From the NCBI GenBank assembly GCA_030168595.1, contig CP115556.1, forward strand, positions 434,001 to 498,000: DNA of 64,000 bases, written 5' to 3'. This DNA comes from Methanomassiliicoccales archaeon LGM-DZ1 (GTDB lineage: Archaea > Thermoplasmatota > Thermoplasmata > Methanomassiliicoccales > Methanomethylophilaceae). The translations under genes and the position numbers were made by a program. Below the pieces are notes generated by a model, which was given only the letters and a program-made list of their open reading frames with translations, was not told the origin of the DNA and did not search any database. Below are positions 2,792 to 53,153 of this stretch, piece after piece (the stretch's first letter is position 1; every line of letters begins with the position of its first letter).

Positions 2792-3763
2792 ATGGAGAAG
2801 ATGGGGAAGGCGGACACGCATGTGCACACCTTCTACTCTGGCTTCAACACCCTGGGGCTGATGAGCTTCCCGGAATCGGTGATACCTCCGGAGAAGCAGG
2901 TGGACGATGCCCGCCGCCGCGGGCTGAACGTCCTGTGCATCACCGACCACAACGAAGTGGCCGGCGGTTTCCGCGCCCAGGAGTATGCGAAGCAGTTCGA
3001 TGATATCGAGGTCGTCGTGGGTGACGAGGTCATGTGCGACGAAGGCGAGGTGATCGGCCTCTGGCTCACCGAGAAGCCCAAGAAGTACCTATCCCCGGAG
3101 GAGGCCGTCGACATCATCCACGAGCAGGGCGGGCTGGCGGTCGCGCCGCACCCGTTCAGCGTCCACGTGGACGGCCTGCAGGAGAGGATCCTTGACCTCC
3201 CGCTGGAAGGCATAGAGGTCATGAACGGCGGGCATCCGGACGCCTATTCCAATTAGTTCGCCAAGTGCGTGTCCGGGCTCTTCCCGGGCAGATGGGCGGA
3301 GACTTCCGGGTCGGACGCCCACTCCCTCTTCACGGCCGGCTACAACTGGACGGAGTTCCCGGGGAGCACGGCCGAGGACCTCAGGAAGGCCATCCTGCAT
3401 AAGACGACCGTCGCCGCGGGCGAGCCCGCTCCGGTCCTGGGCCAGGTCCAGTGGAGCATGGAGGTCGTCTGGGGAGGCCAGAAGCTCATGTACAAATCCC
3501 TGAGGCACAGGCTGGAGGAGGAAGAGGACAACGCCCTCATCCACAAGATCAACTCGATCACCGACATCAAGAAGGCCACCGGGATCGTCGCGGGCTTCGC
3601 CTACGAGTTCCCGCTGACCGTCATGCTCGCCACGCTCCTCAGCACGCAGTTCCTCAAGAGGAAGGCCAAGGCGGCCATGAAGGACATCGGCAGGCGCCTC
3701 GATGCCATAAAAGCAAGGGGCTGGGATGATGCAGGAGAATGGAACGGGCAGTCCCGCCGATGA
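2792..3763 (+). CDS. PHP-domain phosphoesterase with in-frame TAG (possible pyrrolysine)
   Basis: A single PHP-family metal-dependent phosphoesterase frame is interrupted at codon 155 by TAG (3254-3256); the same frame continues to TGA at 3761. Before the TAG are the metal-binding motifs ADTHVHT, ITDHNE, VVGDEV and VAPHPF. After it comes the motif family members need to complete the site, SGSDAHS, so both halves belong to one domain. The substrate is unknown. The start is ATG 2792, about 26 nt downstream of a TATA element (2763-2769), implying a leaderless transcript; ATG 2759 lies upstream of the TATA box. The 3' end overlaps the next gene by 38 nt. If TAG is read as pyrrolysine the product is 323 residues; otherwise the gene is broken. 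Confidence 0.8.
3254..3256 (+). other. in-frame TAG codon in the PHP gene
   Basis: The amber codon falls between ...GGHPDAYSN and FAKCVSGLFPGRW..., inside conserved PHP sequence. The family usually has an ordinary, often basic, residue there. Flanking coding quality is unchanged and there is no frame change. Confidence 0.75.
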
Positions 3764-12723: not shown

Positions 12724-14061
12724 TCATCGCTCCTTTCCGGCGCCTGCCTTCCCGAGGGTCAGGCCGACCCCGAACACGGGATCGCCCGCTTTTTTCTCAG
12801 CTGATACGATCAGCAGGACGACGGCCGCTGCGGAAGCGATCGCCATCAGCCCCCACATCAGCGAGAACTGGTTGAGGGTGTACGGCCTCTCGATGATGAA
12901 CCCCGAGACGGTCGTGAAGACGCTGGCACCAAGGAACAGGAAGATGTTGGTGGCGGCCACGGCGGTCCCGGAGACCGCCAGGGGGTACCACTCCTTCACC
13001 TGGCTGAACGAGAGGGTCATGAACCCGCCGAAGAACCCGAAGAGCGTGCTGACGGCCATCCAGAACCAGTAGCTGTCTATCTCCCCGGCGAACAGGAACA
13101 GAACGACCCAGACCAGGGCGAACGCCGTCCCGCCGAGGATCATGGTCCTCCTCTTGGACTTTATGATCCCATGGGACACGAAGGAGCCCACGGCCACGGT
13201 GCTGGCTATTTTGCCGATGCCAAGAGCGGTGATCATCCATGAGGCGGAGAGGGCGAAGTCGTAGACAGTATCGAAATACGTTGCCGCCCAGGTGGCCTGG
13301 AACACCATGATGGAGCCGTAGACCATGAAGTAGGCCAGGGCGCAGGGCCAGAACCTCCTGCCGCCGGACGCCACGAGCTTCAGCCCGGCGAGCATGGGCA
13401 CTTTCGCGGCGGAGGACTCCTCGCGGGGCCTCCCGGTCTCCGCCTCCTCCGATTCCTCGACGGACGGCAGCCCGACGTCCTTCGGATGGTCGCGGATCAG
13501 GACCGCGCACGCGACGGCCAGGATGAAGGTCACCGTCCCGAGCACCAGGAAGACATCGCGCCATCCCACGGCATCCGCCAGCATGCGCAGGGGGCCGCCG
13601 GCGGCTATGGCGCCGACGTTCCCGACGGCTATGACGATGCCGTTGAGCACGGCGAAATCCCTGCGGGGGAACCACATGGAGACTATCTTCATCAGCGGGA
13701 TGTAGACGACCGCCATGCCGACGGCGATCATCGCCTTGCCGACCGCTACGGCTGCGAACGAATCCGCGGAGAAGGTCAGCAGGGACCCGACGGATGCGAC
13801 GGCCAGGAAGACGGACGAAGTCAGGCGCGGGCCGAAACGGTCCGCCATGAGGCCGCAAGGAATCTGCATCAGGGTGTAGGTCCAGAAGTACACGCTGTTG
13901 AGGATCCCCTTCGATCCCCCGACATCGTCGATGATATCATCGCCGACGACGCCCACCGCCATGCGGTGGAAGTAAACGAAGAAATATCCGATGGTGAGGA
14001 CGATGAACATCGTCCATCCGAGACGGCCGACGGCCCTTGTAGCTGAGGGGTCTTCAGTCAT
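12724..14061 (-). CDS. MFS transporter (anion:cation symporter/OPA-like)
   Basis: A 445-residue, 12-helix major facilitator. The opening GYFFVYFHRMAVGVV and the loop 2-3 motif GLMADRFGPRL resemble the glycerol-3-phosphate/organic-anion branch of MFS. A hydrophilic central loop (about residues 190-225, rich in Glu and Ser) divides the two halves. The substrate is unknown. ATG 14061 is chosen over TTG 14073. It is adjacent to the Cys-rich peptide region but transcribed on its own, so a link to peptide export is only speculative. Confidence 0.85.
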   Translation of the reverse strand: MTEDPSATRAVGRLGWTMFIVLTIGYFFVYFHRMAVGVVGDDIIDDVGGSKGILNSVYFWTYTLMQIPCGLMADRFGPRLTSSVFLAVASVGSLLTFSADSFAAVAVGKAMIAVGMAVVYIPLMKIVSMWFPRRDFAVLNGIVIAVGNVGAIAAGGPLRMLADAVGWRDVFLVLGTVTFILAVACAVLIRDHPKDVGLPSVEESEEAETGRPREESSAAKVPMLAGLKLVASGGRRFWPCALAYFMVYGSIMVFQATWAATYFDTVYDFALSASWMITALGIGKIASTVAVGSFVSHGIIKSKRRTMILGGTAFALVWVVLFLFAGEIDSYWFWMAVSTLFGFFGGFMTLSFSQVKEWYPLAVSGTAVAATNIFLFLGASVFTTVSGFIIERPYTLNQFSLMWGLMAIASAAAVVLLIVSAEKKAGDPVFGVGLTLGKAGAGKER

Positions 14062-14169
14062 AACGACCCACAAAGCGGGCCCTTGTATTTCAATATGGTT
14101 TGTACAGAACAGTGCAGAGCAGGGTTTGCGGCCCTTCCGGGGGCCGCATGCGGGCCTGCCCCTGGGTCA

Positions 14170-14694
14170 TCATTCAGACGGCAGGACGTCGATGCAGAAG
14201 CCCTTCATCACGTCCAATGCCTCGCGGCCGAGCTTCCCGTCATAGGAGGCGACGAGCGCCGGGTCCACCAGGATGTCGGCGTCGGGCAGGGTGGTCCTGA
14301 CCAAGGCTGCGTTCACGATGACGCAGATGTTGGTCGCCACCCCGCAGATCTCGACGCGGGAGTATCCCCTGCGCCTCATCATCTCGAAAAGCCTGTCAGA
14401 TCCGAAAGTGCCTTTCTCGATGACAGTGCACCTCTCCGAGAGAGGCCTCAGCTTCCCGTATATCTCCCAGCCGGGCGTGCCCTTCATGCAGTGCTCCGTC
14501 GGTATGTGCCGGCCTTCGTTGGTCTCGCCGTAGCCGGGCCCGTGGGTGTCCTTGGTGAAGATCACGTCCTCGCCCTCGGCCAGGGCCTTCTCCACCCTCT
14601 GCGCGAGAGCATCCTCTATGCCGGCGGCGGCCTCCGATCCGAGGGACCCGCTGACGAAATCATTCTGGTAATCCACAACCAAAAGCGCATCCAT
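14170..14694 (-). CDS. isochorismatase-family hydrolase, probably nicotinamidase
   Basis: A 174-residue cysteine hydrolase of the isochorismatase/nicotinamidase fold. The catalytic Asp lies in VVDYQNDFV, the Lys in VIEKGTFG and the Cys in VEICGVATNICV. An H-rich metal-site region (TKDTHGPGY, EGRHIPTEHC) is typical of nicotinamidases, which convert nicotinamide to nicotinate for NAD salvage. ATG 14694 is about 25 nt from a TTTATG element on the minus strand. An NMN adenylyltransferase elsewhere in the window fits NAD metabolism, though it is not adjacent. Confidence 0.85.
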   Translation of the reverse strand: MDALLVVDYQNDFVSGSLGSEAAAGIEDALAQRVEKALAEGEDVIFTKDTHGPGYGETNEGRHIPTEHCMKGTPGWEIYGKLRPLSERCTVIEKGTFGSDRLFEMMRRRGYSRVEICGVATNICVIVNAALVRTTLPDADILVDPALVASYDGKLGREALDVMKGFCIDVLPSE

Positions 14695-14726
14695 ATGCCG
14701 GCGGCATCGCCCTCCGGCATAAAGAA

Positions 14727-15149
14727 TCATATGCGGATGATGGCGCCGGGGAATTTCGCCCTGAGGGCCGCGTAGACGTCGCTGAACGGGATGCCCGTCT
14801 CGATCGAGATCTCGGTGCATCCCATGCCGCTCTCGTACAGGCCGGCGACGTCGTCCTTCTCCTTCCTGCTGAGGCTGGTTCCGCCCGATGCATGCGCTTC
14901 GGTATCCGGGATGTCCCATCTCACCGAATGGCACCGGGGGCATCTCTTGGGGCGTCCCCTCGCGGTGCCCCACTTGTGGCCGCACCTGAGGCATACGCAG
15001 CGGAGATATTCCTTCATCCATACCGTAGAACGGCACTTGGGGCAGCTCTTCGGGATCCCGTCGTCCTTGCGCGATACCCACCTGTGGCCGCACAGGGAGC
15101 ACGTGTAGAGGGCACCCGATGTGCCCGTGAAATCAGAGGACCGGTCCAT
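14727..15149 (-). CDS. tandem zinc-ribbon protein with C-terminal helix-turn-helix-like region
   Basis: A 140-residue protein with two similar zinc ribbons, CSLCGHRW...CPKC (about residues 17-39) and CLRCGHKW...CPRC (about 54-73), an internal duplication. The C-terminal 40 residues (KDDVAGLYESGMGCTEISIE...) have the pattern of a helix-turn-helix. It is probably a nucleic-acid-binding regulator. A TATA element (15181-15189) lies about 35 nt upstream of ATG 15149. No target can be named. Confidence 0.7.
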   Translation of the reverse strand: MDRSSDFTGTSGALYTCSLCGHRWVSRKDDGIPKSCPKCRSTVWMKEYLRCVCLRCGHKWGTARGRPKRCPRCHSVRWDIPDTEAHASGGTSLSRKEKDDVAGLYESGMGCTEISIETGIPFSDVYAALRAKFPGAIIRI

Positions 15150-15392
15150 AGGATACCACTGGATTCACATCGCGGTCTCGGCTTTATAAGGGATTTGCGA
15201 ATATTTTCGGAAAACAGGATGAAAACATAATTGGATTGATAAGAACAGACAGATCCACGCCCGTTCCGGGGCGGGAGCGCATGCGGCCCGCAGACCGCAT
15301 CGGATAAAGGCGCACGGACACCGGAACCTTCGGAAAGAAATCCCGGCCGGACAACGGCTTCGGAGACCGCTTGAACGGAACTAAAAGAAAGG

Positions 15393-15470
15393 TGGCGGGC
15401 AAGAAGGGATTCGAACCCTCAACCTACAGCTTAGGAGGCTGTTGCCATATCCAGGTTAGGCCACTTGCCC
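15393..15470 (-). tRNA. tRNA-Arg (anticodon CCT), CCA encoded
   Basis: On the minus strand the acceptor stem is GGGCAAG/CTTGCCC. The anticodon stem is ACAGC/GCTGT around loop CTCCTAA, giving anticodon CCT (codon AGG). The T-arm is GAGGG-TTCGAAT-CCCTT. The discriminator is G (15396) and CCA is encoded at 15393-15395. There is no intron. AGG is heavily used in the neighbouring genes. Confidence 0.93.
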
Positions 15471-15535
15471 AGAGTTAAATCGTTTGCCAGTAAGGCAAAG
15501 CAGGAGATTTGCTCCTGCTTTATATCCTTATTGGT

Positions 15536-16264
15536 TCAGTTCTTGTCTTCAGCCGCAGGAGCGTCGGCCTTGGGGGCCTCGTCCTTCTTGGCCGCCGCCC
15601 AGATCTCGACGAACTCGACGGTGTCGACGCCGAACGCCTCGCGGAGGTCGGAGACGATTCTGAACCTGGCGGTGACCCAGGTCTGGTTGAACTTGACGAT
15701 TTCGGGGAGGGTGACGATGACCTTGTCCCCGGGGAACTCGAACTTGAAGTCGGAGGCGTCGCCGAAGTCGGCCTCGATGATGGCGGCGGCCTTGGCGTTG
15801 TTGTCGGTGATCTCCTCAGAGATCTTCATGACGTACTTGAGGTCGTGGCCGGCGAGCTGGTTGTTGAAGTCGACGCGGACGCGTCCGGCTCCGACAGCGG
15901 TGACGATGCCGGGCCTGCCGCCGAGGGTGACGGTCATGCCGACCATGGGGTTGATCTGCTCCCTGTAGAACTCTTTGGCGGAGTGGACCTCGATGAGCTT
16001 GGGGTTCCTGGCTCCGGCGCCTTCCTCGGCGGGGACCTCGACGGTGAACTCCTCTCCGACCTTGGCGGCCGCGATGGCCTTGTCGAGAGCGGGGAACAGC
16101 TTGTTGGATCCGACGATGTACGCCATGGGGGCGTACTTGACCTTGTCGCTGTAGATGTTCGCTTCTTTCGCCGCCGCCTCGTCGGTGGTGTCGTAGAGCC
16201 TGTCCTCGTCCGCAAGATACGCCTTGTACTCAAGGCGGATGACCTTCTTCGCATTGTCTGCCAT
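15536..16264 (-). CDS. FKBP-type peptidyl-prolyl isomerase, SlyD-like
   Basis: A 242-residue cytosolic chaperone/isomerase of the archaeal long FKBP group. The FKBP core (KVIRLEYKAYL, PMAYIVGSNKLFPALDKAI, VGEEFTVEVPAEE) is followed by an insert-in-flap-type region (MVGMTVTLGGRPGIVTAVGAG, VRVDFNNQLAGHDLKY). A C-terminal domain of about 90 residues ends in an Ala/Lys/Glu tail. Lineage FKBPs of this length often carry such an extra domain. A TATA element near 16315-16325 gives a leader of about 30 nt. Confidence 0.9.
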   Translation of the reverse strand: MADNAKKVIRLEYKAYLADEDRLYDTTDEAAAKEANIYSDKVKYAPMAYIVGSNKLFPALDKAIAAAKVGEEFTVEVPAEEGAGARNPKLIEVHSAKEFYREQINPMVGMTVTLGGRPGIVTAVGAGRVRVDFNNQLAGHDLKYVMKISEEITDNNAKAAAIIEADFGDASDFKFEFPGDKVIVTLPEIVKFNQTWVTARFRIVSDLREAFGVDTVEFVEIWAAAKKDEAPKADAPAAEDKN

Positions 16265-17968
<1,704 letters not shown>

Positions 17969-17972
17969 GCCA

Positions 17973-18022
17973 GGAGGGGCCCGAGCCCCTCCGAAACCCC
18001 TTAGGGCGCTTGCCGGTTTTTT
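17973..18022 (+). terminator. gdhA terminator
   Basis: A hairpin GGAGGGGC/GCCCCTCC (17974-17993) follows the gdhA stop. A T-run (TTTTTTAT) lies at 18017-18024, about 25 nt further on. Confidence 0.5.
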
Positions 18023-18106
18023 ATCGCCGGCACACCGCCCGCATATACTGGCCTGTCCGCGACGCGCCGATAAAGTATAATATCCCGGAGCGGATGGAGG
18101 CCGTAG

Positions 18107-18179
18107 GCCACTTTGGCGCAGCTGGTAGCGCACGTGCCTTGTAAGCATGAGGTCGGGGGTTCGAACCCCTCAAGTGGCT
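18107..18179 (+). tRNA. tRNA-Thr (anticodon TGT)
   Basis: The acceptor stem is GCCACTT/AAGTGGC. The anticodon stem CGTGC/GCATG encloses loop CTTGTAA, giving anticodon TGT (codon ACA). The T-arm is CGGGG-TTCGAAC-CCCTC. The discriminator is T at 18179 and CCA is not encoded. A TATA-like element (TATAATATC) lies about 25-30 nt upstream, and CCTTTTGATTT follows the 3' end. Confidence 0.93.
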
Positions 18180-18292
18180 CCTTTTGATTTCTGGCACATC
18201 CGGCCCTTCATCGGATCCGAATAGTTCGCAAATGCCCCGGGACGTATCAGGCCCCGGAATGGTTTTGAAAAAATCGAAGCAAGGCCCGGGAA

Positions 18293-18433
18293 TCACTTCT
18301 TGCCTTTCTTCTTGAGCTCTTTCATGGCCTTGTACTTCTCGACAGGGTCATCCGAGCTCATGGCCTTCTTCTTCTCTTCGGCCTTGGCTTTGTTCGCCTT
18401 GTTCCTGGAGAGCTGCTTCTTGCTCTGTGCCAT
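18293..18433 (-). CDS. 46-residue Lys-rich small protein
   Basis: A short gene encodes a 46-residue, strongly basic, probably helical protein starting MAQSKKQLSRNKANKAKAEE and ending in a Lys-rich tail. ATG 18433 is about 25 nt from an AAATAAAATC element on the minus strand, which supports it as a real leaderless gene. No family is recognised. Its composition suggests a nucleic-acid- or ribosome-associated role. Confidence 0.6.
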   Translation of the reverse strand: MAQSKKQLSRNKANKAKAEEKKKAMSSDDPVEKYKAMKELKKKGKK

Positions 18434-18469
18434 GGAGCGTCCGTACTATCGGATTTTATTTGTATTTTT

Positions 18470-20575
18470 TCAATCGGACAGCCTGCCGTCAGAATACGAT
18501 ATTACATGCTGGCACACTCTGTCCGATACCAGGGCGCCGATCAGCTCCTCTTCCTTGGGGAGCCAGAAACCGCGGTCGCAGACGATGACCAGCCTCTTCT
18601 TGGCACGGGAGACCGCGGTGTTGATGACCTTCATGCCCGTCGCCGTGGATGAGGATGTGAACCTGAGAGGGACGTCGCGGACGCAGTCTTCGCCGTCCTG
18701 CACGCTCAGGATGACCGTGTCCCATTCCCTCCCCTGGGATTTGTGCACGGTCAGCAGGGCGTCCCCCTCCGACCACGGCATGGTGTCGCGGAGGACGCGG
18801 TACTGGTTCTTGTACGGGGTCAGGATGCAGAAGCTCCCTGCGGGAGGCTCCTCGCGCCGGATCCATTCCGAGATGGCCTCGGCCTCCGGCCTGTTCATGC
18901 GCTCTTTCCTCGGGCCGCACCTGACATCAATGCAGATTATCTCCAGCGGATGCTCGGCCAATCCCCTGATGCCGTTGCGGTAGACGAAGCGGTCGAGGAC
19001 CCCGGCGAGGTTGTCCCCGAAGCGGTGGGAGGCGGTGAGGTCGCGCTTGACCGTGCGGGCGAAAGAGGGCTCCGCCCCTGCGCGGTACATGTCGGCAAGC
19101 TCCTGCGGATCCCTGGCGAGGACATCCTCGGTGTAGAGGGCGGACATGTCCCAGAGGAAGGACCAGGCCATCTTGGGGTCCTTCCCCGCCCATCCCTCCA
19201 TGCTCTCCTTCTCCAGGGTGCACACCGGGGGCAGCTGCTTATGGTCCCCCAGGAACGTCACGGGGATGCCGTTGGCCAGCAGGGCGGTGCTCAGGAGGAC
19301 CCCGCAGTACCCGGCCTCGTCGATGAATATGTGGTCGGCATCCAGGGCCGGCTTGTCCCCTTCGGCGCCGTTCGGCAGGAAGCGCGACATGCATATCTGC
19401 GGGGTGCAGGCGATTATCAGCGCGTCCTTCGGATCGCGGTCGACCGCCGATGCAGTGAGGGCGGCCGCCTGAGACTCCAGCTCCTCGATCCTCGCACCGA
19501 TCTGCATGTCCGTGCATCCGGCGTACTAAGGGATCGAGCCCGCCGGACGGTCGCGCCCGTACATCACCCTCTGAAGTTCTCCCAGTGCATTGCCGTCGCC
19601 TTTTTCCGCACGTGCCAGCAGCGCAGAGGCCTCCCTGTCGCCCTCCAGCCTCCGGGAGAGCGAGGCGATCCTGTCGGAGAAAGGCTTCCCGCGCTCGCCC
19701 CTTTTTTGCATGGACATGAGCTCTGCGACCTCGCCGCGGACGGAATCGCGGCGGCGCTCGGCGAGGACCTTCCTGAGAAGGTCCGCATCCTTCCTGCGCT
19801 TGTCCGCGATGGCGCGGATGCCCTTCCCCTCGCATATGCCGGGATACTCCGAGGCGAACGGCTCGGTCGCCGTCCCCAGGCGGATGATGGCCTTCGCCGG
19901 GTCCAGCCCCGACAGCTCCCTGCTGCGGCCGATGGCGCTTATGAGCCCGCGCAGTACCTGCTCCACGGCGTTGTTGGTCGGAGCGATCACCGCTACCCTC
20001 CTCCCCTTTGCAAGATAAGCGGAGACGGAAGCTGCGAGGACCTCCTGGGTCTTCCCGGTGCCGGGAGCTCCCCACACATATGACATGGGGGACGAAAGCA
20101 CCGCGCGGACCGCCTCCCTCTGCTCCGGGGTAGGGGCGGGGCCGTCGGGCCAAGGCACGGCATCCCCGGCGATGCACGGGGCCGAACGGGGCAGGGACAC
20201 CGACTCCCCGAAGCGCTCGTAATATTCCTTGAGGTTCCTGACCAGGAAGGACAGGTCCGTCTCTATGCTGAACCTGTGCCCCTCCTCGGAAGCCACGTTG
20301 AACACCCAGGCTGGGACCTTCGCCGCCAAGGTGCGGCTGTCCCTGTCGTAGAAGAGGATCTCCGCCTCCGCGGTGACGCAGAGGTCCTCGATCCTGATCC
20401 TGAGCCCGTCGGTATCCTCGATGGGGCGGGCGAGCACGAGGATGATGTGCTCCTTCCCGGACGTATGGTACGACTCAACCTCTGCTACAGAGAGATTGGT
20501 CCCGTTGGCCCCGGTGAACGACAGCAGGGCCTCCGCCGCGGACGTGCAGACGGAGACCAGTTCGCGGCCCCTCAT
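18470..20575 (-). CDS. SF1 (UPF1/Dna2-like) helicase with in-frame TAG
   Basis: One helicase frame of 702 codons is interrupted by TAG at codon 350 (19526-19528). The frame continues through YAGCTD directly into the second half. Before the TAG lie an N-terminal domain, the Q-motif-like PTPEQREAV and Walker A (WGAPGTGKT). After it lie Walker B (FIDEAGYC), LGDHKQLPPV, the motif TVHKSQGREWDTVI and motif VI (TAVSRAKKRLVIV). Neither half is a functional helicase alone, so either TAG is translated (pyrrolysine) or the gene is dead. ATG 20575 overlaps the upstream gene stop (ATGA), placing it third in a unit with two tandem paralogues. Confidence 0.8.
19526..19528 (-). other. in-frame TAG codon in the SF1 helicase gene
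   Basis: Plus-strand CTA at 19526-19528 is TAG in the helicase frame, between ...RDRPAGSIP and YAGCTDMQIGARI.... It falls in the variable region between the early motifs and Walker B. The frame is unchanged across it. Confidence 0.75.
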
Positions 20576-21465
20576 CCGGCGTTCTTCACTCTCTGCGCCT
20601 TAGGCTCCCTGGGGGCCGGAGGCTCCATATCGAAATAACCGTCGACGAAATCGGCGATGTGCCCATGGCAGGAGGCGAGGTGCTTCTTGGCGGTCAGCTT
20701 GGTCGACATGGCGTAGCGGCTCATGTCGTCGAGCCCGTCGGCGAGGTACCCGGCCCTGTCGGTGCGGTTGCATTCCCAGTACATCACGGCCTTCTCGATC
20801 TCCGGAAGCGACTTCCCATCGATGGAGAGGGTCGCAGCGTCGTTCAGGCTGTTGAAGAACTGCCTGAAGAGCAGGACGGAGCGGTTTGACATCTTCTTGT
20901 CCATCTTGAACCTCTTCTTAGAGGGGTTCATGGCGGATATCGTCTCGGCGGCCGTCGCGCCGAGGTCTATGCAGTCCCGGCACTTGATCGGCACGTCGCG
21001 GATGTCCGCCGCCCAGCCTATGTACCCCATGTCGAGGTAGCAGCAGTTCATGTACAGGACGACGACGTCCTGCGGGTCCTGCGCACGCGGGACCTCGGAG
21101 GCTATGATCCTGAACATCTCGCCGGTGACGGAGCCAGCTTCGATCCCGGGATGCTTGATCTCCATCTCCGTTTCCACCCTGGCCATCGCGGGCACCGGGT
21201 ACACGGTGCCTGGCTCGACGGCGGCGATGCAGGCGGCCGCCGCCTTGCGGGGTATCTCCCCGTAGGCGCGGACGAAGGCCCTGTCCTCCCCGTCCCAGCG
21301 GTCTACGCCGTCCGACCAGAAGTCGGCGGCCTTCGAGAGGTTCCCGTGGGCCAGCATCGATTCCGCTGCTATGAAGCAGGCGTTCCATCCCGCATCGTCC
21401 GCTATGACCGGGATGTCGTATGCTGTCTCCTTTTCCTCTTCCTTCTTCCTTCCGAACATCGTCAT
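20572..21465 (-). CDS. hypothetical protein, 297 aa; paralogue of the next gene upstream
   Basis: I do not recognise a named family. The protein is soluble and helical, begins MTMFGRKKEEEKE, and shares blocks with its neighbour: RWDGEDRAFVRAYGEIPRK and the strongly conserved GWAADIRDVPIKCR. Conserved cysteines (NCCYLDMG, KCRDCIDLG) are partly shared. Start ATG 21465 or 21459 lies about 25-30 nt from a TGTTTAAC element, suggesting its own leaderless promoter. Its stop overlaps the helicase start, so the three genes probably act together. Confidence 0.7.
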   Translation of the reverse strand: MTMFGRKKEEEKETAYDIPVIADDAGWNACFIAAESMLAHGNLSKAADFWSDGVDRWDGEDRAFVRAYGEIPRKAAAACIAAVEPGTVYPVPAMARVETEMEIKHPGIEAGSVTGEMFRIIASEVPRAQDPQDVVVLYMNCCYLDMGYIGWAADIRDVPIKCRDCIDLGATAAETISAMNPSKKRFKMDKKMSNRSVLLFRQFFNSLNDAATLSIDGKSLPEIEKAVMYWECNRTDRAGYLADGLDDMSRYAMSTKLTAKKHLASCHGHIADFVDGYFDMEPPAPREPKAQRVKNAG

Positions 21466-21508: not shown

Positions 21509-22351
21509 TCAGCGGGAACTCCCTTTCCCGAAGTACTCCTCTATGAACGCGGATATCGCGGCGTCCGCCGAACGGCGGTTCGATCTCGTTATGCCTGCGG
21601 ACGCCCCCCTGCCGACGGCGTTCAGCCCCTCGGCCAGGCGGATGGTCCTGTCGGCAGGAGCGGAGCTCCAGTATGCGACAGCCGATTCTATGTCCTCCAG
21701 CGGCCTCGACCTGACCGCCTCCTCGGTGTCCTGCGACAGCTGATCGAAGAAGCCCTTGTAAAGTGCCAGCGTGCGCACGGCCATCTTGACGTTCATGCTC
21801 CCCATGTACCCCTCGGAAGCATGCTTTCCGGCGGCGCCCTCGGAGCGTTCCGCCAGGGCGGAAGCGGAACGGCAGAGGAGGGGCACGTCGCGGATGTCCG
21901 CCGCCCATCCCATCCTCCCGATCTGGAGGTAGAAGCAGTTCATGCAGAGGAGGACCACATGGTCGTCCGAGTCCATCCTGTCCAGCTTCGAGGAGACCGA
22001 GTCGAAGGACTCGCGGCAGACGGATGCCGTCACATCCGGGAACTTCAGGGACATGTAGGATTCCAGCTCGGCGAGCTGATGGCACGGGTGCAGCACACCC
22101 TTGGAGATATCCGACACCACCTTCTCAGAGAAACGGCGGGGGATGCCCCGGTAAACGCGCAGGAACCCCTCGTCCTTCCCGTCCCAGCGGTCGGCGGACT
22201 GCTTCCACAGGGCCACGGCGCCCCTGAGGTCGCCGGAACGCCACTGCCTGCCGGCGGCGTCCGCGAAGCTGCTCCACGGAGCGTCCGCCGGTATGTCCGG
22301 GAGCTCGGGCGCGTCCGCCCCCTTCTTCCCCTTCCTGCCGAACAGTCCCAT
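21509..22351 (-). CDS. hypothetical protein, 280 aa; first of a tandem paralogous pair
   Basis: A paralogue of the following gene. It begins MGLFGRKGKKGADAPELPDI and contains RWDGKDEGFLRVYRGIPRR and GWAADIRDVPLLCR at matching positions. The pair clearly arose by tandem duplication and then diverged. No membrane segments or catalytic motifs stand out. A TATA-like AT-rich stretch lies at about 22375-22390. Proximity to an SF1 helicase hints at a nucleic-acid-related role, without direct evidence. Confidence 0.7.
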   Translation of the reverse strand: MGLFGRKGKKGADAPELPDIPADAPWSSFADAAGRQWRSGDLRGAVALWKQSADRWDGKDEGFLRVYRGIPRRFSEKVVSDISKGVLHPCHQLAELESYMSLKFPDVTASVCRESFDSVSSKLDRMDSDDHVVLLCMNCFYLQIGRMGWAADIRDVPLLCRSASALAERSEGAAGKHASEGYMGSMNVKMAVRTLALYKGFFDQLSQDTEEAVRSRPLEDIESAVAYWSSAPADRTIRLAEGLNAVGRGASAGITRSNRRSADAAISAFIEEYFGKGSSR

Positions 22352-52602: not shown

Positions 52603-52986
52603 TCACTCCTTATAAGTCCAGAGGCCGTGCTTGTTGCAGTACTCGTACGCGACGACGTCCTTGGCATCGGTCGGGAAGAACGCCTCGGGCTTGTCCCCGG
52701 GCTTGAGGTTCTTCCTCATATAGATGCCGTCGGCCTCGATAGCGATGAACACGATGTAGTGGTCCTCTTCCATGGGGTGGGCGGCGGATTTGCCGACCTT
52801 GACGAGGATCCCTCCGTCCTGCCTGACGATGTAGGGGACGTGCTTGTTCTCATCGGGATCGGCCGTCTGGGCGGTGAGCTTCGCAGTCGCCTGCCCGCAA
52901 CAGACGGGCGTGCAGTTGCATTTGCCTGTGTACGCCTTCTCGAAGACCTCTCCGCATTTCTCGCATTTGTAGTATTGGATTGCCGT
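52603..52986 (-). CDS. desulfoferrodoxin (superoxide reductase), ACG start
   Basis: A 127-residue 2Fe-type superoxide reductase protecting anaerobes from superoxide. The N-terminal desulforedoxin part has YYKCEKCGEVFEK and CNCTPVCCG. The SOR centre ligands are in KHVPYI, HPMEEDHYIV and the final CNKHGLW. No ATG, GTG or TTG exists in frame before the first Cys pair. ACG at 52984-52986 sits 7 nt behind GGAGGT and gives the expected N terminus. An in-frame TAG lies upstream, and a TATTAAAAG element at about 53018-53030 leaves only a short leader. The gene is easily missed by finders because of its start. Confidence 0.85.
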   Translation of the reverse strand, partial: TAIQYYKCEKCGEVFEKAYTGKCNCTPVCCGQATAKLTAQTADPDENKHVPYIVRQDGGILVKVGKSAAHPMEEDHYIVFIAIEADGIYMRKNLKPGDKPEAFFPTDAKDVVAYEYCNKHGLWTYKE

Positions 52987-53153
52987 GGTTGCTACCTCCG
53001 CGCTCGGAATCTCCTAAGGCGCTTTTAATAACATCACCCGGACCGTTCCCCGGGATGGCCTATGTACAAAGAATGCGCATAACCGGCTGCGCACCGTTTA
53101 AGTAAGAACGGCGCCGTCTGTGCCGCAGGTGAACGAGCACGGCAGAGAGCATC

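Follow-up and report, generated by a model that had tools for sequence, protein, structure and literature searches.

Does a TAG codon in the middle of a helicase gene of Methanomassiliicoccales archaeon LGM-DZ1, a gut-type methanogen of the genus Methanomethylophilus, end the protein, or is it translated as pyrrolysine (Pyl, the 22nd amino acid)? The gene lies in the window, by which we mean the whole 64,000-nucleotide stretch of DNA that was analysed, corresponding to positions 434001-498000 of a genome held in a single contig of 1,768,094 bases. Its reading frame runs on the minus strand from an ATG at 20575 to a TGA at 18470, and the TAG is the sole internal stop. We propose that the gene encodes one full-length SF1 helicase of 701 residues in which the TAG at codon 350 would be translated as pyrrolysine, a reading to which we assign a probability of roughly 0.93.

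Helicase motifs on both sides of the TAG

The features of the locus, in window coordinates, are:

18470..20575, minus strand: SF1 helicase gene (AAA_11/AAA_12, Upf1/IGHMBP2/RecD2-like), 701 codons with TAG taken as sense, assigned from Pfam and homology
19526..19528, minus strand: in-frame TAG at codon 350, putative pyrrolysine codon, assigned from column comparison with orthologues
20048..20071, minus strand: Walker A, GAPGTGKT, codons 169-176, 5' of the TAG
19307..19330, minus strand: Walker B (motif II), IFIDEAGY, codons 416-423, 3' of the TAG
18587..18751, minus strand: C-terminal helicase motifs TVHKSQGREWDTVILS and NTAVSRAKKRLV, 3' of the TAG, assigned from Pfam and motif positions
20572..21465, minus strand: upstream gene, function unassigned, no Pfam match; a distant relative adjoins the TAG-containing helicase in the orthologous locus L007

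A sequence-only reading of the window had placed Walker A and Walker B on opposite sides of the TAG within one frame, and had considered an old pseudogene unlikely since both halves keep their motifs. Both points hold. Codons 169-176 and 416-423 flank the TAG, motif III (GDHKQLPP) lies on its 3' side, and motifs III-VI are all downstream of codon 350, such that Walker A, Walker B and the C-terminal motifs expected of an SF1 helicase are found within one chain. In a Pfam search with the full protein, AAA_11 was matched at residues 151-452, spanning the TAG, and AAA_12 at residues 557-668; when the halves were searched separately, the beginning of AAA_11 was matched in the N-terminal one, and its remainder together with AAA_12 in the C-terminal one. 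Domain matches thus extend across both halves, and homology to one-piece helicases runs through the TAG.

The closest solved structures by sequence are Smubp-2, which is the best match, and Upf1, both weak matches, and profiles of the TIGR00376, RecD2 and MkoA types also match the protein. The curated cut-offs were not reached for either RecD2 (TIGR01448, 55.8 against 500 bits) or IGHMBP2 (TIGR00376, 54.6 against 348.9 bits), and with NCBIfam scores this far below them we place the helicase in none of these families. It shares its core motifs with the SF1B helicases of the Upf1/IGHMBP2/RecD2 type but differs from them in its sub-cut-off family scores and, judged by these profiles, is an SF1 member of a family outside the curated RecD2 and IGHMBP2 models.

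The upstream gene and the start of the helicase share 4 bases (ATGA), and both genes are therefore probably carried on one transcript. This gene and its neighbour at 21509-22351 (minus strand) are paralogues with 35% identity, neither of which has a Pfam match, and distant relatives of the pair adjoin the TAG-containing helicase in L007.

Pyrrolysine machinery and TAG usage in the source genome

An absence of pyl genes, which was seen at the outset as one finding that would refute pyrrolysine, is not the case, as the genome holds a complete pylTSBCD set. PylS scored over its cut-off, PylC, PylD and a RamA-like protein adjoin it (open reading frames read by eye, with no profile run), and PylB is encoded elsewhere in the genome. 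A single tRNAPyl-like gene with a CTA anticodon sits just upstream of pylS; it was located via the anticodon-loop sequence reported for the M. alvus tRNAPyl, whereas Rfam gave no match in this region and ARAGORN misses the gene. The genome also encodes MtmB with one internal TAG, as well as a second methylamine methyltransferase gene nearby that likewise contains one. Among the 28 relatives with the helicase, PylS was detected in 22, and every genome whose aligned helicase contains a TAG belongs to this group. The search did not detect PylS in the four genomes of genus g12, and the helicases there lack such a codon. A PYLIS-like RNA structure was not found 3' of the helicase TAG (z = -0.21), and such enhancer-like RNA signals are not required for Pyl decoding (PMC4153887).

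Usage of TAG as a terminator was assessed with a simple gene finder based on codon usage, applied to stretches that total 860 kb (49% of the genome). None of the 717 predicted genes ends in TAG, with 664 ending in TGA and 53 in TAA, despite TAG making up 19.6% of background stop triplets (7767/39626), and at most one gene (L049, with a TAG two codons before its TGA) may conceal a TAG terminator. When the codon in question was treated as sense, the ratio of internal to terminal occurrences was 16:0 for TAG against 12:45 for TAA (Fisher p 6e-9), and 0/16 TAG, 45/57 TAA and 569/693 TGA codons still stood as termini. The TAA and TGA controls indicated that the gene finder also fuses neighbouring in-frame genes; since they give similar joined frames, internal TAG counts alone prove little, and we rely instead on the missing TAG termini and on homology. 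In stretches of four relatives, genes ending in TAG numbered 0/368, 1/292, 2/347 and 1/343. No other tRNA with a CTA anticodon was found in a partial scan of the 860 kb sample. Within this sample TAG is thus practically unused as a terminator, as expected of a genome-wide TAG-as-Pyl code. Its absence at gene ends despite a background of about 20%, taken together with the TAG codons of orthologues described below, indicates that TAG is a sense codon in the source genome.

The TAG is shared by diverged orthologues

Helicase relatives were identified in 29 of the 102 genomes of the family (source genome counted), with one-piece homologues in the 28 relatives, and homology to uninterrupted one-piece helicases continues across the TAG. 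Several relatives within the genus are without the gene, and no helicase relative was found in the viral contigs searched. Four closer orthologues inside the genus, L006, L007, L008 and L009, are 45-47% identical to the LGM-DZ1 gene over its length. Both L007 (genome G006) and L008 (G005) carry a TAG at the identical alignment column, at 46-47% protein identity to the LGM-DZ1 helicase. The context of this codon (O) reads YGRDRPAGSIP-O-YAGCT in LGM-DZ1, YARDRPLKDIG-O-YEGCD in L007 and YQRDRPKNSIP-O-YDGCT in L008. Elsewhere the column is occupied by CGT (Arg) in L006, by GAA within a degenerate motif in L009, and by Glu in 18 of the 24 remaining rows, the sister genus having mostly Glu. The comparison of homologues at codon 350 that the sequence-only reading had suggested thus yields a TAG in two orthologues that have diverged, with Arg or Glu encoded in others. 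The chance of three random stops coinciding in a single column out of 680 is approximately 2e-6. The helicase of strain 1R26 also carries the codon-350 TAG.

The codon is embedded in a short conserved patch:

19514..19561, minus strand: Y-x-R-D-R-P-x3-I-x-O-Y-x-G-C, codons 339-354, defined by identity among the three TAG rows

This patch stands out within a helical insertion that separates motif Ia from motif II and is variable elsewhere. Over the insertion (codons 250-385), the three TAG rows agree at 17 of 121 columns; codons 339-354, the TAG included, account for 10 of the 17. All three rows agree at Y351, G353 and C354, which immediately follow the TAG and precede any ATG.

Relatives of the same neighbouring genes lie beside the L007 helicase, which supports orthology of the two loci. 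In the inferred tree the LGM-DZ1 helicase and L007 are sisters (support 96/93), while L008 groups, less well supported, with L006 and L009; by this topology the TAG was either gained once and lost twice, or gained twice. Helicases of the same gene family in the sister genus g9 (L029, L030 and a second copy in G069) contain in-frame TAG codons at other positions.

Constraint on the two halves of the protein

Decay of the downstream half, the other outcome that had been named as contrary to pyrrolysine, is not seen: for each of the orthologues compared, the 3' half is the better conserved of the two, with identities (3' vs 5') of 55% vs 39% in L007, 54% vs 38% in L008, 58% vs 37% in L006 and 56% vs 36% in L009. 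The Ka/Ks comparison that had been proposed for the 3' half points in the same direction, with dN at 0.40-0.44 in the 3' half against 0.66-0.73 in the 5' half, dS similar between them and dN below dS; as dS is near saturation and GC-biased, these ratios are indicative only. The protein is hence conserved on both sides of the in-frame TAG.

Strain 1R26 ('Candidatus Methanomethylophilus sp.') is about 98-99% identical to the window over the aligned parts. Its helicase has zero substitutions and two single-base gaps at homopolymer or short-run positions, and because similar gaps occur elsewhere along the 1R26 contig, we read both as sequencing errors. Window positions 14001-20000 match the 1R26 contig C42 over ~6 kb at 0.9995-1.0 identity with flanks at 94-99%, and this near-identical block suggests a recent exchange between the strains.

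Alternative explanations for the in-frame TAG

A pseudogene, in which the TAG arose recently as a nonsense mutation and left the 3' half as a relic, would fit the two 1-base gaps in the 1R26 helicase and the lack of the gene in several relatives within the genus. However, the gaps sit at positions where sequencing errors are the plainer reading, the same column holds TAG in three species that differ at over half of their protein positions, and constraint is stronger on the 3' half than on the 5' half, making a pseudogene extremely improbable. Alternatively, the TAG could terminate a 349-residue subunit, with translation restarting at ATG357 to give a two-chain helicase. An ATG is indeed present seven codons past the TAG in LGM-DZ1, and a conserved TAG position would be expected under a two-subunit model as well. 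This restart model fails on two counts: the Y-x-G-C directly after the TAG, kept in all three TAG rows, precedes any ATG, and no ATG stands at that position in L007 or L008, whose first Met comes later. Moreover, a single chain is encoded where orthologues have Arg or Glu in this column, and the source genome hardly ever uses TAG to terminate; we consider a split gene highly improbable.

Competition between aRF1 and tRNAPyl is expected in principle at a TAG codon, and the helicase TAG could be leaky, giving a regulated mix of a short product and the full helicase that is tied to the Pyl supply (methylamines or the PylRS level). That the TAG is common to several species would suit such a regulatory site, but Arg or Glu replaces it in relatives and no RNA signal was found 3' of it. 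The missing TAG stops further suggest constitutive, efficient decoding, as has been argued for 'Ca. M. alvus' (PMC4153887), and we therefore regard regulated leakiness as unlikely. A final alternative is that another suppressor tRNA decodes TAG as one of the standard amino acids, given that comparisons of this kind speak to sense decoding and not to the identity of the residue. Against this, tRNAPyl with its CTA anticodon and PylRS are both present, and the partial scan of the 860 kb sample yielded no further CTA tRNA, leaving this alternative with next to no probability.

Probable pyrrolysine at residue 350

On the comparisons above, the TAG at codon 350 is read as sense, and the presence of a single tRNAPyl(CUA)/PylRS system points to pyrrolysine as the residue. 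We hypothesise that tRNAPyl(CUA) charged by PylRS inserts pyrrolysine at codon 350, where the ribosome would do so efficiently and aRF1 would seldom stop. Residue 350 is predicted to lie in a loop of the helical insertion between motifs Ia and II, at a place taken by Glu or Arg in other species. An AlphaFold model of the helicase, built with no alignment, has a mean pLDDT of 41 and is confident only in the helical insertion (codons ~255-340), so that it lends weak support to the loop position. The TAG probably originated through a GAG to TAG change at a position tolerating Glu or Arg, which would have been harmless since TAG already meant Pyl. Pyrrolysine at this residue need not be catalytic.

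The window had been said to hold two pyrrolysine candidates within 64 kb, and a further one besides the helicase is indeed present:

2792..3763, plus strand: PHP-type phosphoesterase-like gene with an in-frame TAG at codon 155 (3254-3256)

This TAG occurs at the same column in 1R26 and in another species, G001 (69% identity), and the sense rows vary widely there, with Met, Ala, Leu and His among the residues. Both genes have a Cys four residues past the TAG (+4), as O-Y-x-G-C in the helicase (Cys codon 19514-19516, minus strand) and O-F-A-K/Q-C in the PHP-type gene. Every TAG row of both genes has it, against 0/26 helicase and 0/27 PHP rows with a sense codon. A contact between the pyrroline imine of Pyl and this Cys thiol could yield a reversible thiohemiaminal clip. 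As a general rule, Cys(+4) was rejected, since it showed no enrichment among ~30 non-methyltransferase TAG sites from five genomes, where only the helicase and the PHP gene (two species) have it, and it is missing from eight TAG sites that are not shared with the homologues at hand. Given its absence from the wider sample, a Pyl-Cys pairing would concern few retained sites only, and the lead is weak, as it comes from two independent genes and the offset was picked out post hoc. We consider it quite unlikely that pyrrolysine has been retained for function at the two shared sites through such a pairing.

Further genes of the source genome with in-frame TAG codons and coding-like flanks were observed in L052 (2751-3269, plus strand, and 14767-15252, minus strand), L186 (7641-8369, plus strand) and L175 (3666-4445, plus strand). 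These include TetR-like, PPC/DUF296-like and other genes, and relatives of the PPC-like gene have varied sense codons at the site. An apparent internal TAG at codon 7 of the frame at 52603-53034 (minus strand) most likely reflects a wrongly assigned start codon: translation of the desulfoferrodoxin-like gene probably begins at a later one.

Comparison with known pyrrolysine systems

In the methylamine methyltransferases MtmB, MtbB and MttB, Pyl is the catalytic residue. These enzymes, of which the source genome encodes examples, resemble the helicase in having an in-frame TAG at a conserved site and in depending on the same tRNAPyl and PylRS, but differ from it in that Glu or Arg can replace Pyl in the helicase. 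Kivenson et al. are said to have described, in Science in 2025, archaea including Methanomethylophilus in which TAG means Pyl throughout, with proteomic support. Like these archaea, the source genome has TAG nearly absent as a stop and many non-methyltransferase genes with an in-frame TAG; unlike them, where Pyl has reportedly been demonstrated by proteomics, in LGM-DZ1 it is predicted from sequence.

For 'Ca. Methanomethylophilus alvus', which belongs to the same genus as the source genome, Borrel et al. (2014; PMC4153887, Table 7) listed 16 predicted non-methyltransferase Pyl proteins, including the helicase-like AGI85437 (536 aa, 'prophage Lp3 protein 8'). They found that TAG accounts for 1.6% of stops in that organism and proposed its constitutive (stable) decoding as Pyl (PMC4153887). 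As such genes were already listed for the lineage in 2014, the novelty of a TAG-containing helicase is lower than the sequence-only reading implied. AGI85437 is shorter than the LGM-DZ1 helicase and annotated differently, the two being set apart by description only. The TAG site of the LGM-DZ1 helicase, in comparison with the 'Ca. M. alvus' list (PMC4153887), is common to three species of the genus. What is new here is one additional gene, together with a TAG position that lies in a short conserved motif and is common to diverged species; a TAG conserved between diverged species outside the methyltransferases is a type of evidence absent from the 2014 list.

Standard gene calling splits TAG-containing proteins such as this one in two. 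With the helicase, pyrrolysine beyond the methylamine methyltransferases gains another well-supported case, and the question arises whether selection maintains Pyl at a site without a catalytic role, or whether the residue is a neutral passenger made possible by a code that leaves TAG free.
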